From positions 4,774,001-4,838,000 of the forward strand of contig NZ_CP023699.1 in NCBI RefSeq assembly GCF_008704495.1: 64,000 nucleotides of DNA, written 5' to 3'. This document shows, in pieces, positions 24,519-54,609 of this stretch (the first letter of the stretch is position 1; each line of letters begins with the position of its first letter). This DNA is from Streptomyces kanamyceticus (GTDB lineage Bacteria; Actinomycetota; Actinomycetes; Streptomycetales; Streptomycetaceae). Under the pieces are notes generated by a model. That model saw only the letters and a list, made by a program, of their open reading frames with translations. It ran no database searches and was not told where the DNA came from. Both the position numbers and the translations under genes were made by a program.

Positions 24519-24542
24519 GGGGCGCGGACGACCGCCCGCCGG

Positions 24543-24930
24543 GCGCTCAGCGGCTCCCGAACAGCACCCTGAGCGCTCAACCGCCCCCAGACAACACCCC
24601 GCGCGCTCAACCGCCTCCAAACAGCACCCCGCGCGCTCAGCCGCCCCCGAACAGCACCCCGCGCGCTCCGCCGCCCCCAAACAACACCCTGAGCGCTCAA
24701 CCGCCCCCAAACAACACCCTGAGCGCTCAACCGCCCCCAGACGACACCCCGCGCGCTCAGCCGCCCCCAAACAGCACCCCGGGCGCTCAACCGCCCCCAG
24801 ACAACACCCCGCGCGCTCAGCCGCTCTCAAACAGCACCCCGGGCGCTCAGACTCCCCCAAACAACACCCCCGCGCGCTCAGCCGCCCCGAACCGCACCCC
24901 CGGCGCTCACTCGCTCCCGAACAACATCTC
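24543..24930. repeat. 30-bp tandem repeat array, 13 units
   Basis: Units begin with GCGCTCA at 24543, then every 30 bases to 24843, then at 24874 and 24903. A typical unit reads GCGCTCAACCGCCCCCAAAC then ARCACCCYGV. The last unit contains the stop codon (24907-24909) and final codons of the GbsR-type regulator gene, so the array looks like repeated copies of that gene's 3' end. The join TGAGCGCTCA is a perfect 10-bp palindrome at several junctions. This array fills the 388-base gap between the two genes. I see no other gene in it. Confidence 0.92.
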
Positions 24931-50324: not shown

Positions 50325-50690
50325 TCAGGCGCTGCGGGGGGTGGCTGTGATGGTTCCTGCGCCCGGGGCGTTCGCAGCGCCCCGGTCCTGGTCCTGATCA
50401 CCGTCGCCGACCAGCTGGTGGTCGCGCCGGTCGAGATTCACGAAGACCATCCCGTACCGAATGGCACACCGCACGGGCTGCGGCGCACCCCTCGGACGGC
50501 GGAGGCACCGGTAGGCCCGGATCTCCTCCTCGTCGTCCCGGGTGACGACGATCGGCTCGCCGAGGAGGGTCACCATCAACGAGTCACCGCGGTGGGGGAT
50601 CGCGGTCACGAGGTCGATGAAGTGCCAACCGGAGCGGTAGGCGGTGGCCATTTCGCGGCGGAAGGTGCGGTCGTCGGGGGGTGTGCTCAT
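50325..50690 (-). CDS. Small protein resembling a degenerate, shortened Rieske domain
   Basis: The 121-aa protein reads like the ends of a Rieske 2Fe-2S domain with the middle missing. DSLMVTLLGEPIVVTRDDEE then EIRAYRC (residues 36-62) matches the family approach to the first cluster box. RYGMVFVNLDRRDH (79-91) resembles the strand after the domain in ring-hydroxylating oxygenases. The usual CxH is replaced by CLRRPRG, and the second CxxH box is absent, so no cluster can bind. The start overlaps the stop of the DIVW-repeat gene as ATGA, so both are made together. It may be a degenerate relic or a repurposed partner for the DIVW protein. Confidence 0.6.
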   Translation of the reverse strand: MSTPPDDRTFRREMATAYRSGWHFIDLVTAIPHRGDSLMVTLLGEPIVVTRDDEEEIRAYRCLRRPRGAPQPVRCAIRYGMVFVNLDRRDHQLVGDGDQDQDRGAANAPGAGTITATPRSA

Positions 50691-50983
50691 GCCGCCGCTC
50701 CCTCCGTACCGGAAGGCACGTTCTTGCCTTCGGCCGAGCTGGTACCCCAGACGATGTCGTTGGTCGACATCGAGGTCCAGACAATGTCTCCGGCCGGAGC
50801 GGAACTCCAGACGATATCCGGCGGGGACACCTGCGGCCCGGAGACTGCCCCCGTCACATTCTCAGATCCTGAGCGCAGTTCAAGACCGCTGAACGCGCTG
50901 ATGGCCAACCCAACGGAGAAGGCACCGACAAGCACTGAGCGAAGCTTTCCCTTGCACATAGCGGGCTTCGTCCTCACTTCCAT
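50687..50983 (-). CDS. 98-aa putative exported peptide precursor with three DIVW repeats
   Basis: The N-terminus MEVRTKPAMCKGKLRSVLVG, with the hydrophobic run SVLVGAFSVGLAISAF (residues 16-31), looks like a signal peptide or anchor. The second half carries DIVW at 56-59, 66-69 and 76-79, exactly every 10 residues (PDIVWSSAPA, GDIVWTSMST, NDIVWGTSSA), then a short hydrophilic tail. I know of no family with this pattern. The ATG at 50983 has GGGGGAG seven bases upstream; the longer frame to 51007 lacks this. It overlaps the mini-Rieske gene (ATGA) and is divergent from three regulator genes. A multi-core modified peptide, a signal or a surface peptide are possible. Confidence 0.7.
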   Translation of the reverse strand: MEVRTKPAMCKGKLRSVLVGAFSVGLAISAFSGLELRSGSENVTGAVSGPQVSPPDIVWSSAPAGDIVWTSMSTNDIVWGTSSAEGKNVPSGTEGAAA

Positions 50984-51010
50984 CGCGACTCTCCCCCGGC
51001 CTTCCAAGAC

Positions 51011-51029
51011 GATGGCTCATTCAGCCATC
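51011..51029. promoter_or_regulatory. Inverted repeat in the divergent DIVW / regulator promoter region
   Basis: GATGGCT (51011-51017) and AGCCATC (51023-51029) form a perfect 7-bp inverted repeat around CATTC. It lies between the DIVW gene start (50983) and the first regulator gene (51091). A site this placed could serve both promoters and is a candidate target of the adjacent regulators. Confidence 0.5.
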
Positions 51030-51090
51030 CGAACACCACAGAAGCGATGCATCATGTTCCTGCACGTTCAGGACCCTGGGGGGTGGAGTT

Positions 51091-52080
51091 ATGGCAACAA
51101 AAGGTCCAATTGGGACACATCCGCACTCTGTGGTTGAACTATGCGCCGACGGCAAGCGGCTTTACGCCAGCGCGCTGCGCTCCGGACGCGTCCGCCGCAG
51201 CGAAGTGGAGACCGCTCCCTGCCTGATGGAGTTCGCTCTTCTGCACCCAGACCCAGAAGACACCGACTGGCTCCGGCCTGCTTCACCCACGGCCGTGCTC
51301 GCGCAGCGCCTCTACCCGATCGAGCGGGAGATCCTGAAGCGCAGGACGCTCGCCATCGAACTGACCGATTCCTTTGAGCCATTTATGGCCCTCAGTGCCG
51401 TGGACCGGTCGGCCGACCACGCCATCACCGTCCTGGAGGGCGCCACTCGGATCAACTCGGCCATCGACGCCGCCACGGCGGAATGCCAGTCCGAGATACT
51501 CACCGTGCAGCCCGGCGGCGGGCGGAGCGAAGCAGTTCTCACCGAAGCCGTGGAGCGGAGCCAGGGCATCATCGAGCGCGGCATCACCATGCGTACGCTC
51601 TATCAGCACACCGCCAGGCACAGCCAGGGAACCATTGCCTACGCCGAGTACATGAGGCAGGGCAAGGTAGAGGTGCGCACGCTGGAAGAACTCATAGAGC
51701 GGCTGATGATCTTCGACCGGACGGTCGCCTTCATACCCGCCCAGGACGACCGTCAAGTGGCCCTGGAACTCCGGCACAGCGGACTCGTCGAGTATCTGGC
51801 AAAGGTCTTCGAGCAACACTGGCGCCGCGCGTCCCCCCTCCTCGACGAGGCCCCCTACGACCCTCCGACCGGAGGAATCACGGGTGTTCAACGCTCCATC
51901 GCCAAACTCCTCATCGAAGGCCACGTCGACGAGGCCATCGCCCGACGCCTCGGCATGAACGTCCGCACCTGCCGCGCCCACATAGCCAAGATCGCGGCGG
52001 CCCTGGGCAGCGGCAGCCGGGCCCAACTCGGGTATCTGATCGCTCAGTCGGGGATCCTCGACGAGGGCAGCTCCAAATGA
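51091..52080 (+). CDS. Regulator 1 of 3: TrmB-like sensor domain with LuxR-type helix-turn-helix
   Basis: The 329-aa protein begins with a short helical region (VVELCADGKRLYASALRSGR, CLMEFALLHPDPEDTDW). A central domain (about 110-235) of the TrmB/phospholipase-D-like sensor type follows, with EILTVQPGGGRSE, MRTLYQHTARHS and EVRTLEELIERLMIFDRTVAF. It ends with a LuxR/GerE-like helix-turn-helix (KLLIEGHVDEAIARRLGMNV, CRAHIAKIAAALGSGSRAQL, about 270-320). No receiver domain is present. It is divergent from the DIVW gene. Its stop overlaps the next regulator's start as ATGA. Confidence 0.8.
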   Translation: MATKGPIGTHPHSVVELCADGKRLYASALRSGRVRRSEVETAPCLMEFALLHPDPEDTDWLRPASPTAVLAQRLYPIEREILKRRTLAIELTDSFEPFMALSAVDRSADHAITVLEGATRINSAIDAATAECQSEILTVQPGGGRSEAVLTEAVERSQGIIERGITMRTLYQHTARHSQGTIAYAEYMRQGKVEVRTLEELIERLMIFDRTVAFIPAQDDRQVALELRHSGLVEYLAKVFEQHWRRASPLLDEAPYDPPTGGITGVQRSIAKLLIEGHVDEAIARRLGMNVRTCRAHIAKIAAALGSGSRAQLGYLIAQSGILDEGSSK

Positions 52081-53072
52081 CCGTCGACGCCCACCCGCAC
52101 GGCCCGGACGAGTTGTGTGCGGCGGGTTCGGAGCTGTACGCCCGCGCCCTGCGCGAAGGCCATGTGGCGAGCGAGGACGCGGACCAGGCCCCGTGCCTCG
52201 TGGATCTGGGCCTGCTCCGACCAGCGTCCCAGGGCAACGAACAGCTGCGCCCCGTCCCACCCTCAGTCGCCCTGCCCCGCTTGCTCGAAGGCATCGAGGA
52301 CCGCATCGCTCATCACCGGCGCCAGGAATCCCTGCTCGCCGCGGCATTCGAGCCGCTCATGGCCGTCGCCGCGCAACAGCCGGTCTCCCAACAGGCTGAC
52401 GTCACGCCCTCAGCCATCACCGTGCTGAATGGACTTCCCCGGATCCAGGAAGCGGTCCGTAAGGCGATAAGTGACTCCAGCCGAGAGATGCTCGTCATCC
52501 AGCCCGGCGGCTTCCGGACTCCCGAGGAACTCGCCCTGTCCCTCGACGACGCGCGAGTCGCCCTTGCCAGGGGCGTCCGCTTGCGGACCCTCTACCAGCA
52601 CACCACGCGGCACTCGCTGCCCGTCCTTGCCTACTACGAGCTGCTCGACGGTGATGCCGAGGTCCGCACCCTGGACGAAGTCACCGAGCGGCTCTTCGTC
52701 TTCGACCGCACCGTGGCCTTCATCCCGGCGAACAAGGAACGTGACGTCGCACTGGAGATCCAGCACCCCGCGCTCGTCGACTACCTCGGCACGACCTTCG
52801 AGCGATTCTGGCGCCTTGCCACCCCCATGTACCCGACACAGGTGCCGATCGCCTCGGACAACGGCTTCTCCCCCCGCCAACGCGCCGCCGCCGTCCTCCT
52901 CACCGAGGGCCTCACTGACGGTGAGATCGCCGCCCGCCTCGGCATGAACATCCGCACCGCCCGCGTACACATCGCCAAGCTCAGCGAACGACTGGGCAGT
53001 CACAGCCGGGCCCAGCTCGGTTTCCTGATCGGGCAGTCCGGGATCCTCGACCACGGAGAACAGTCCGTCTAG
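52077..53072 (+). CDS. Regulator 2 of 3: TrmB-like sensor domain with LuxR-type helix-turn-helix
   Basis: This 331-aa paralogue of the previous gene has the same layout: ELCAAGSELYARALREGHVA, LVIQPGGFRTPEELALSLDD, LRTLYQHTTRHSLPVLAYYE and EVRTLDEVTERLFVFDRTVA. The C-terminal helix-turn-helix is LTEGLTDGEIAARLGMNIRT, then ARVHIAKLSERLGSHSRAQL. It is visibly closer to regulator 3 than to regulator 1. The ATG at 52077 lies inside the stop of regulator 1, so the two are made in a fixed order and ratio. A 167-base gap follows before regulator 3. Confidence 0.8.
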   Translation: MTVDAHPHGPDELCAAGSELYARALREGHVASEDADQAPCLVDLGLLRPASQGNEQLRPVPPSVALPRLLEGIEDRIAHHRRQESLLAAAFEPLMAVAAQQPVSQQADVTPSAITVLNGLPRIQEAVRKAISDSSREMLVIQPGGFRTPEELALSLDDARVALARGVRLRTLYQHTTRHSLPVLAYYELLDGDAEVRTLDEVTERLFVFDRTVAFIPANKERDVALEIQHPALVDYLGTTFERFWRLATPMYPTQVPIASDNGFSPRQRAAAVLLTEGLTDGEIAARLGMNIRTARVHIAKLSERLGSHSRAQLGFLIGQSGILDHGEQSV

Positions 53073-53239
53073 AACCGGGCACGCGAACACCCTTGGCGCC
53101 GCGAAGGCGCCTCTGACACCCGAAACAAGCCCTTCAAAGCGAACCACGAGAAGTGGACACTTCAACCACGGTCTGTAATCCGGCCCGCACACCCCCTGCA
53201 TAGAATTTCGGCGCTTCAACCGAGCGGGAGGGAGCTCGC

Positions 53240-54217
53240 ATGACTCGGAACCACGGGACCCACAGCGCGGAGGAACTGTGCGAGACAGGTTCAGTCGTCT
53301 ACGCGCGCGCCCTGAGCGAAGGCTGCGTCCGAACCGAGGACGCCGAAGAGGCCCCCTGCCTGGTCGATTTCGGCCTCCTCCACCCCGACCTGGACGACAT
53401 GCGCTGGCTGCGCCCCACCGCCCCCAACGTCGCCCTCCCCCGCCTCCTGCGCACGATCGAGGACCGCATCGCCGACCAACGCCTACGCGAGGAGAAGCTG
53501 ACCGCCGCGTTCGAGCCGCTCATGGCCCTCGACGCGCAGTTCTCCGCCGCCTCGGACCAAGCGCCCACGATCACCGTCCTGGACGGGCTCGAACGCATAA
53601 ATTCAGCCATTGACCGGGCCATGAGTGAGGCCCGGGAAGAGTTCCTCGCCGTACAACCGGGCGGCACCCGCCCCCCGGAAACCCTGGCCGAAGCGCTCCC
53701 CCGCGACCAGGCCCTCCTCTCCCGCGGCTGCCGCATGCGCACCCTCTACCAGCACACGACCCGGCACTCCCTGCCCGTGCTCGGCTACTTCGAGCGGTTG
53801 GAGGGCGACGCCGAGGCCCGCACGCTCGACGAGGTCACCGAGCGGCTCTTCGTCTTCGACAGGACCGTGGCGTTCATCCCGGCGAGCAAGGACCGCAGCC
53901 TCGCCCTGGAACTGCGCCACCCGGCCCTGGTCGAGTACTTCGCCACCACCTTCTGGCGCCTGTGGCGGCTCGCCCTGCCCATGTGGCCCCAAGCCGCCCC
54001 GCAGCTCTCCGAGAACGGCATCACCCCACGCCAGCGCGCCATCGCGAGCCTCCTCATCGAAGGCCTCACGGACGCGGAAATCGCCACGCGCCTCGGCATG
54101 AACATCCGCACCGCGCGCGTCCACATCGCCAAACTCGCCGCCACACTCGGCAGCGGCAGCCGGGCCCAGCTCGGCTATCTCATCGGCCAGTCGGGGATCC
54201 TCGGCCAGCAGAGCTGA
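53240..54217 (+). CDS. Regulator 3 of 3: TrmB-like sensor domain with LuxR-type helix-turn-helix
   Basis: The 325-aa third paralogue carries the same domains: ELCETGSVVYARALSEGCVR, LAVQPGGTRPPETLAEALPR, MRTLYQHTTRHSLPVLGYFE, EARTLDEVTERLFVFDRTVA and a C-terminal LIEGLTDAEIATRLGMNIRT helix-turn-helix. The ribosome site is GGGAGGGAG just before the ATG. A 167-base leader separates it from regulator 2, so it may have its own promoter. Three near copies in a row point to local gene duplication and divergent specificity. Confidence 0.8.
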   Translation: MTRNHGTHSAEELCETGSVVYARALSEGCVRTEDAEEAPCLVDFGLLHPDLDDMRWLRPTAPNVALPRLLRTIEDRIADQRLREEKLTAAFEPLMALDAQFSAASDQAPTITVLDGLERINSAIDRAMSEAREEFLAVQPGGTRPPETLAEALPRDQALLSRGCRMRTLYQHTTRHSLPVLGYFERLEGDAEARTLDEVTERLFVFDRTVAFIPASKDRSLALELRHPALVEYFATTFWRLWRLALPMWPQAAPQLSENGITPRQRAIASLLIEGLTDAEIATRLGMNIRTARVHIAKLAATLGSGSRAQLGYLIGQSGILGQQS

Positions 54218-54279
54218 AGTCCCACACGGCAGTGTGGACGACGAGCAGGGACGCCCATCACACCCACATGAGGAGAGAG

Positions 54280-54609
54280 ATGGCCGACGAAACCTCCCCA
54301 GCTGCCGTTGACAGAGACAGCGAGTTCAATCGGCTCCGCTATCTCGTCCCTTACATACTGTTCGTCATCGCCAACGCCGGAACCAGTCGCGCTTCCCTCT
54401 CGGAGAGGCCGATCGCCTTCTGGATTTTCGCCGCGTGTGCCGTGCTCGGCGTCCTGACAACCGCTGGCTGCCTGAAGAGCATGAGGAACAGCCTCGGCTC
54501 CCGCAGCGACGGGCAGCACCGCCCGGCCTTCTGGCTGGACTTCTGGGGCATCCTTCTCGTGCTCTACGGGCTCTACGTCATCCTCTCGGTCCTCAACCAC
54601 GCGTCGTAG
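54280..54609 (+). CDS. Small integral membrane protein
   Basis: The 109-aa protein has three predicted membrane helices: YLVPYILFVIANAG (about 25-40), IAFWIFAACAVLGVLTTAG (about 48-67) and FWGILLVLYGLYVILSVL (about 90-107). A charged N-terminus and a basic loop (KSMRNSLGSRSDGQHR) complete it. AGGAGAG directly precedes ATG at 54280, which decides the start. It lies 62 bases after regulator 3 on the same strand and may be the last gene of that transcript. I recognise no family and no function. Confidence 0.72.
   Translation: MADETSPAAVDRDSEFNRLRYLVPYILFVIANAGTSRASLSERPIAFWIFAACAVLGVLTTAGCLKSMRNSLGSRSDGQHRPAFWLDFWGILLVLYGLYVILSVLNHAS

Follow-up and report, generated by a model that had tools for sequence, protein, structure and literature searches.

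A candidate peptide communication locus in Streptomyces, with multi-copy D-x-x-W-x precursors and a co-varying PLD/TrmB-LuxR regulator

The bacteria that make many of our antibiotics carry a locus that looks like an undescribed peptide “language”, which we describe here from Streptomyces kanamyceticus. The window analyzed is a stretch of 64,000 nucleotides (NZ_CP023699.1, 4,774,001-4,838,000, forward strand), and coordinates are positions in this window unless contig numbering is indicated. The peptide precursor gene, PEP (50687..50977, minus strand), encodes a basic N-terminus, a hydrophobic leader, and three D-I-V-W-x words, namely, DIVWS (50804..50818), DIVWT (50774..50788), and DIVWG (50744..50758), all on the minus strand. 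It overlaps, by the four bases ATGA, a 121-residue mini-Rieske gene (50325..50690, minus strand) that resembles the N-terminal part of dioxygenase alpha subunits. Divergent from this pair is REG1 (51091..52080, plus strand), the proposed receptor and transcription factor, with a winged helix, a long helix, a PLD/TrmB-like sensor, and a LuxR-type helix-turn-helix (HTH). An inverted repeat, TCCTG-N6-CAGGA (51058..51073), lies between PEP and REG1 as a candidate operator. Two tandem REG1 paralogues are encoded on the plus strand: REG2 (52077..53072), which overlaps REG1 by a further four-base ATGA, and REG3 (53240..54217). The open reading frames described in an earlier, sequence-only reading of this DNA were all found where it placed them, both ATGA couplings are real, and the three DIVW repeats, one every 10 residues, are confirmed in the PEP translation. 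Its peptide of 98 residues stands only in part: the frame from 50687 to an ATG at 50983 is present, but relatives of PEP begin at GTG 50977 (VRTKP, read as MRTKP), and PEP is therefore most likely 96 residues long. At that length, it has a basic, hydrophobic putative leader; the small propeptides of RRNPP quorum-sensing systems are Sec-secreted and 10-100 residues long.

PEP is one of a rapidly evolving group of short precursors, in which a conserved hydrophobic leader is followed by 1-10 copies of D-x1-x2-W-x3. Matches to the DIVW protein (E ≤ 0.01) came from 32 of 120 relatives, counting the own genome, all of the same genus; at least the one in G060 (L032) is a chance match once translated. 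The translated match sites share a leader, VRTKPTMxxKMLRSVL..., followed by D-x-x-W copies. It had been proposed to check whether such matches adjoin the regulator and the mini-Rieske gene, and they do: the order clpB, an F420/PPOX gene, mini-Rieske, PEP, and divergent REG1 was seen in 20/20 relatives examined, with zero to five further regulators per locus. These relatives were chosen from the PEP matches; in L041 and L050, PEP did not reach the tblastn cut-off applied here but is known from the peptide search and the translated match sites. We further collected 211 stretches with mini-Rieske and a divergent REG1, the named and unnamed sets of which overlap; the 80 records kept with names are Streptomyces, except for one “Actinobacteria bacterium”. 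The leader motif is present in 199 of the 211, giving 159 distinct precursors, and the other 12 also carry a word, with altered starts or leaders (e.g., GEPTW, GEPSW, DSVW, DITW, and NSSW). Since the stretches were found by mini-Rieske or peptide similarity, they are biased towards peptide presence; as a check on this bias, we inspected the ten top-ranking loci when REG1 alone was the query (window included), and the peptide is present in 10/10 (7 by leader motif and 3 by inspection).

Some members and matches depart from this pattern. At L177 (G386, a 2.8 kb locus), one of the 12 stretches lacking the leader motif, the peptide gene seems broken, with leader and word in different frames, and a REG1 match is still adjacent. 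DNA for the VRTKP start is apparently present but frame-shifted in L050, where the shift is seen in three frames, and in L259, where it is inferred from the same string; translation probably starts elsewhere in both. Two own-genome matches, at contig positions 4798656 and 4798776, are readings of a 30-base tandem repeat and not family members. This repeat (24539-24926, about 13 copies) has open frames on both strands, and its minus-strand reading gives VVWG-like words that match the peptide query weakly and are unrelated.

Within the family, it is the word that is kept. The pattern [DEN]xxW occurs in 159/159 precursors selected by the N-terminal motif, and 122 of the 133 precursors with at least two Trp words use a single uniform tetrad. 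Across the 133 multi-copy Streptomyces precursors, x1x2 identity is 0.94 within a precursor versus 0.05 between precursors. By offset from the Trp, from -3 to +1, identity is 1.00, 0.99, 0.95, 1.00, and 0.73, and outside the word it is 0.13-0.38 per position, mostly near 0.17. The three DIVW words of the window are encoded with different synonymous codons (GATATCGTC, GACATTGTC, and GACATCGTC). Across the family, protein identity of the repeats is kept while codons drift, so the absence of frame conservation that the sequence-only reading had named as a danger to itself is not what we see. The DIVW repeats are beyond chance, because the family occurs in many species and the word is uniform inside most precursors. 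Of the 159 precursors, 39 end in the word itself or one residue beyond it.

Words differ between loci, with 36 core tetrad types in 168 loci of one genus, and they co-vary with residues of the REG1 sensor. We compared the tetrad with every REG1 column in these 168 loci, all with full-length REG1 (2/170 loci were dropped for regulator length or completeness, and L177 was left out, as its peptide gene looks broken); subsets of 162 and 157 loci served for the offset scan and for x3, respectively. Positions 136 (51496..51498, Ile in the window) and 157 (51559..51561, Ser in the window) jointly track x1, 143 and 145 (residues 143-145, 51517..51525) track x2, and 221 (51751..51753) and 149 track x3, the residue after the Trp; these codons are on the plus strand. 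Specifically, x1 = Ser and Met136 go together in 80/80 loci both ways, and Met136 is found nowhere else. Thr at x1 comes with Val136 in 39 of 40 loci, a residue also present in 29/48 loci with Ile, Leu, Val, or Pro words. Asp157 is found in 120/120 Ser/Thr loci versus 0/48 others, and Pro at x1, always in E-P-x-W words, comes with Leu136 and Val157 (6/6). For x2, His accompanies Asp143 in 9/9 loci versus 10/159, and Gly accompanies Gly143, Arg145, and Thr181 in 38/38 each (elsewhere 46, 78, and 56 of 130). For x3, Asp is paired with Arg221 in 28/28 loci (Arg221 overall in 85/157), Pro with Gln221 in 36/38, and Val with Gly221 in 16/18. Offsets -6 to -4 and +2 to +5 gave a best z of 3.2 versus 4.5-4.7 for -2, -1, and +1; the lack of a comparable column at the outer offsets points to the pentapeptide D-x1-x2-W-x3 as most likely the recognized unit. 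The pairs make chemical sense: a hydroxyl at x1 goes with an acidic side chain, Ser, the smaller of the two, is matched by Met and Thr, the larger, by Val, and Asp at x3 is matched by Arg.

The pairing also recurs along the phylogeny. On a tree of the mini-Rieske protein and REG1 minus residues 100-260, x1 changed on 35 branches, and 14 of the 17 Ser/Thr switches coincide with Met/Val switches (11 Ser-to-Thr with Met-to-Val and 3 Thr-to-Ser with Val-to-Met). Hypergeometric p values are 2.7e-9 for column 136, 1e-7 for 157, 5e-10 for 145, and 3e-7 for 143. Among two-tip clades (n = 46), the three that differ in Ser/Thr all differ in Met/Val as well, and 1/39 same-x1 clades differ at 136. Mean coupling exceeds the average in the REG1 sensor and falls short of it in both the winged helix and the HTH, so linkage alone is not a sufficient explanation; mini-Rieske columns couple to the word more weakly than REG1 columns do. 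From these patterns, we strongly infer that REG1 recognizes the pentapeptide. That the repeat peptide is sensed by neighboring regulators, as first suggested, is thereby supported for REG1, because its sensor residues co-vary with the repeat word; the paralogues do not follow the full code.

Part of this code, position 157 and partly 136, carries over to pairs with other leaders. We took 20 distant regulators (37-49% local identity), picked among the matches listed from the own and other genera of the bacterial family. Ten have an upstream, opposite-strand small frame in which a hydrophobic stretch is followed by a word, for example, DSQWG twice (L273), DTGWG twice (L277 and L279, same genus), or DPAWG at the extreme C-terminus (L265); by eye, the leaders bear no resemblance to the core leader. 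When the word was required near the C-terminus, 9/20 distant regulators versus 5/1240 other long open reading frames qualified, and without this end condition 10/20 versus 15/1240; the five background frames, from L050, L095, and L114, themselves resemble genuine peptides. A second round, with a hydrophobicity cut of 1.55 (1.7 in the first) and without its own background control, added seven pairs, among them DTGWD from a different family (L291) and two copies of DPGWQ (L309). Two candidates were set aside: the DTSWGG frame of L339, which has no clear leader, and DSQWG of L281, which lies downstream, although its Asp157 would fit. In the resulting 17 distant pairs (15 outside the own genus), Asp157 accompanies 8/9 Ser/Thr words versus 0/8 others, an out-of-sample agreement with a Fisher p of 4e-4 (1.4e-3 without L279). 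Further, the distant DPAW pair has Leu136/Val157, as for Pro words of the core set, and 3/4 distant Thr words come with Val136. The regulator family itself (E ≤ 1e-30) is found in 118/150 genomes and 12/17 genera of the bacterial family. In a phylum-wide sample, it occurs in 12/296 genomes, nine of them of the own genus, and among the other three, a peptide was seen only at L291.

The regulators have the architecture first ascribed to them, three paralogues of TrmB/LuxR type, with an HTH in all three and a PLD/TrmB-like domain in the REG1 model. Identity to REG1 is 47% for REG2 and 54% for REG3. These two match Pfam GerE (LuxR-type HTH) above the cut-off (8.7e-7 and 2.3e-6, respectively), while REG1 does so below the curated cut-off (0.0019). 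The AlphaFold model of REG1 begins with a winged helix at the N-terminus, followed by a long helix and a PLD/TrmB-like domain, and ends in an HTH. The winged helix, helix/coiled coil, and PLD-like ligand domain were matched to TrmB-like regulators by sequence profile and fold, and the HTH was matched to VqmA and CviR by fold and to DevR and NarL by sequence profile. The Pfam matches of REG1 at E up to 1 include no TrmB model, no tetratricopeptide repeats (TPR), and no autoinducer (acyl-homoserine-lactone)-binding domain; over the sensor, they comprise only sub-threshold TbsP_N, DUF7436, and DUF6885. The modeled sensor is alpha/beta and PLD-like, without an array of paired helices.

Only REG1 obeys the full code; tandem paralogues follow 157 partly and opposite-strand ones not at all. 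Tandem same-strand paralogues have Asp157 in 61/67 cases when the local x1 is Ser or Thr versus 8/33 otherwise, with relatedness uncorrected. Opposite-strand paralogues (n = 67) have Val136 in 66 and Ala157 in 65 whatever the local word, which makes them a useful negative control for the REG1 co-variation. Such a paralogue, near-invariant at the x1 positions, faces the tandem array in many species and may read a constant ligand. In the window, positions 136/157 are Ile/Ser in REG1, Met/Ala in REG2, and Phe/Asp in REG3, and our guess is that REG2 and REG3 may hear the same, related, or foreign words. Among 282 regulators in 100 loci of 4.8-16 kb, 100 lie beside the core peptide, 6 have another candidate frame, and 176 have no peptide by the criterion used, only a partial fit to the receptor-peptide pairing that had been proposed. 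The possibility that the regulators occur mostly without the small genes, named at the outset as fatal to that pairing, did not appear for REG1, with the peptide gene present in all of the ten REG1-only loci. The 6 other frames include the core peptide of L050 with its altered start and a frame ending in DSAWS at L095; the remaining four look like chance frames as translated. Further family regulators lie at L095 (9665-10432) and L114 (9779-10420), apparently beyond clpB, a position inferred from the spacing in other loci. The L095 regulator has its own DSAWS-ending frame beside it, and the L114 locus contains a DSGWG-ending frame.

Similarity to alpha subunits of Rieske dioxygenases was found for the mini-Rieske protein with PDB profiles (7.8e-5), NCBIfam GbcA (7.9e-8), and, below the cut-off, Pfam Rieske (0.022); its profile aligns with the N-terminal portion of alpha subunits from ring-hydroxylating dioxygenases. 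The top match picks up again, weakly and without significance for that stretch alone, at a strand about 60 residues further along, as though the segment that binds the cluster were absent. Rieske [2Fe-2S] clusters are bound by a C-x-H ... C-x-x-H ligand motif. In 14 aligned mini-Rieske sequences, C62-x-R64 and C75-x-x-R78 are invariant, placing Arg at both expected His ligands, and the L034 protein, outside this alignment, has Ser for the second Cys; with these substitutions, the protein is unlikely to hold an ordinary Rieske cluster. The alpha-subunit match and the lost ligands agree with its earlier description as a 121-residue Rieske-like remnant. As the proposed partner, it is strongly conserved in the core locus across Streptomyces (the gene is found in 327/392 genomes of the genus at E ≤ 1e-8), but it was not detected in the 20 distant loci, which makes it an accessory. 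Our guess is that it may bind or handle the peptide. A small membrane protein gene downstream of REG3 (54268-54609), which had been counted with the system, has no relative in the 20 loci examined and, for that reason, is probably outside it.

The inverted repeat, directly upstream of REG1, has intact arms in 144/168 loci and may be the operator of the divergent pair. As for the output, a clue comes from Streptomyces coelicolor, where we take SCO3661 to be clpB. The two names appear together in papers such as PMC2687793, in the text available to us, and the accessible part of PMC3282765 lists SCO3665 (327 residues) and SCO3666 (394 residues) as LuxR-family regulators. This order fits clpB ... 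REG1-paralogue-paralogue, so SCO3664 is probably the REG1 orthologue, by synteny only. According to the available portion of PMC6585502, insertion into each of a set of genes, one of them SCO3664 (“regulator”), increased actinorhodin over 50-fold; a complementation plasmid for SCO3664 is listed there, and 12/16 tested regulator mutants, possibly including that of SCO3664, were restored. By analogy through SCO3664, REG1 probably controls antibiotic production as one output, and would do so as a brake.

Taken together, we think it likely, on sequence grounds, that this is a peptide communication locus in which the PEP propeptide is exported, cut, re-imported, and read by REG1. The hydrophobic leader would direct export, and extracellular proteases would release pentapeptides D-x1-x2-W-x3 (DIVWS/T/G in the window), which an oligopeptide permease would re-import. 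They would then bind the PLD/TrmB-like domain of REG1, with 136/157, 143/145, and 221/149 as specificity positions, and binding would alter how the LuxR HTH contacts DNA, with the inverted repeat between the divergent genes as the probable first site, such that REG1 would autoregulate the pair. Since different species carry different words, these could act as pherotypes. On balance, we also lean towards a broader proposal, a new class of peptide communication centered on Streptomycetaceae, with multi-copy D-x-x-W-x pheromones, one-component PLD/TrmB-LuxR receptors, a residue code, paralogue arrays perhaps listening to neighbors, and antibiotic control.

Several of our observations weigh against exported, re-imported signals read by REG1. 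First, no protease or permease gene was recognized in the locus, in a search for relatives of nine window genes only. Second, the genome has a single exact copy of the inverted repeat, and a search allowing up to 2 mismatches gave 15 occurrences (one place counted on both strands) versus 10 for the control, with no clear further site. Third, 10/20 distant regulators lack a recognized upstream peptide, as do, by the criterion used, five other REG relatives of the own genome (L244-L248). Fourth, the code is imperfect: L315 (DSQW) and L267 (DMGW) have Glu157, 4/5 distant Ser words come with Leu136 and not Met136, and the x2 rule fails in the distant set, where Gly143 and Arg145 are each present in 16/17 pairs whatever x2 is. 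On the tree, 3/17 Ser/Thr switches occur without a Met/Val switch, and N-terminal columns also score, namely, 35 (winged helix, x2) at 1.9e-5 and 37, 41, and 89 (x1) at about 1e-3. Finally, the synonymous codons of repeats differ in 10-42% of comparisons versus 27-71% for random draws; the repeats therefore partly reflect some recent duplication.

The alternative that survives best, though we regard it as rather unlikely, is that the word is a linear docking motif. In this reading, no signal is exported; the small protein would remain inside the cell or in the membrane and contact REG1 itself, as an anti-regulator or co-activator. The co-variation data all show recognition, not export, and the lack of a recognized processing or import gene in that limited search would suit a docking protein. 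Against it, hydrophobic leaders precede spacers that vary, word copy number ranges from 1 to 10, the word lies at or one residue from the C-terminus in the 39 precursors noted above, and by eye the leaders of other genera seem unrelated; these features are typical of exported propeptides, though none is proof. Very improbable, in our view, is that the repeats are core peptides of a modified ribosomal antibiotic whose production the regulators control. Multi-core precursors do exist among ribosomally synthesized and modified peptides, and a Rieske-derived gene overlaps the peptide gene, but no modifying enzyme was recognized in the conserved block (relatives of nine window genes were sought, and not every open reading frame was annotated), the mini-Rieske protein lacks cluster ligands and was not detected in the 20 distant loci, and a product alone would not explain residue-by-residue coupling with a regulator sensor. 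That the co-variation is mere shared ancestry or linkage of adjacent genes exchanged as a block is hardly credible: the genes are adjacent, the species are related, horizontal locus replacement is possible, and a few N-terminal columns also score, but the coupling is concentrated in a small number of sensor columns and falls below average in the HTH and in the winged helix, which is nearer the peptide gene, mini-Rieske columns are weaker, 14 double switches arose in parallel, and distant pairs, whose leaders differ, still obey the Asp157 rule.

If peptide communication through PEP and REG1 is borne out, it could explain species-specific control of antibiotic clusters, and five-residue synthetic peptides would be a cheap tool. 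With the residue code, the match of receptor to ligand can be tested directly, and words can be proposed for regulators without a known peptide.

No description of a DxxW peptide with a PLD/TrmB-LuxR system was found among the open-licence papers listed in our searches, consistent with the sequence-only reading, which knew of no described system with this combination. The closest likeness is to the RRNPP(A) systems of Bacillota (Rap-Phr, PlcR-PapR, and Rgg-SHP), where a small propeptide gene likewise adjoins that of a one-protein receptor, as PEP adjoins REG1, and where short linear signals show pherotype diversity. Some RRNPP propeptides, including tandemly duplicated ones, hold several putative signals, as PEP holds several words (PMC11343458, in the part available). 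However, RRNPP receptors have TPR domains (PMC10075063, in its accessible text), whereas the REG1 sensor is PLD/TrmB-like and joined to a LuxR HTH, so PEP/REG1 is not a member of RRNPP; further, the words here are D-x-x-W-x, and the hosts are mainly Streptomycetaceae. The archaeal regulators TrmB and TrmBL2 (PDB 2f5t, 3qph, and 5box) share with REG1 the winged helix, helix, and PLD-like ligand domain, but REG1 adds a C-terminal LuxR HTH, and its proposed ligand is a peptide, where the entry for 2f5t gives TrmB a sugar-binding domain. LuxR-type quorum-sensing receptors share the C-terminal GerE-type HTH, while REG1 has no match to their acyl-homoserine-lactone-binding domain. The gamma-butyrolactone receptors of Streptomyces (ArpA/ScbR type) are likewise part of signaling that controls antibiotics in the same organisms, but, on general background, they differ in having a small-molecule signal and a TetR-type receptor. 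An older report describes an extracellular signal of S. coelicolor that depends on BldK, and we claim no link between it and PEP. Small molecules are given as the typical signals of Actinomycetota in the available text of PMC10075063, and gamma-butyrolactones as signals for Streptomyces in that of PMC13220807, while an older review, PMC4748050, names in its accessible part cyclic or modified peptides as well as gamma-butyrolactones. A genus-wide language of linear peptides with a readable receptor code would, if true, add a second signaling layer.

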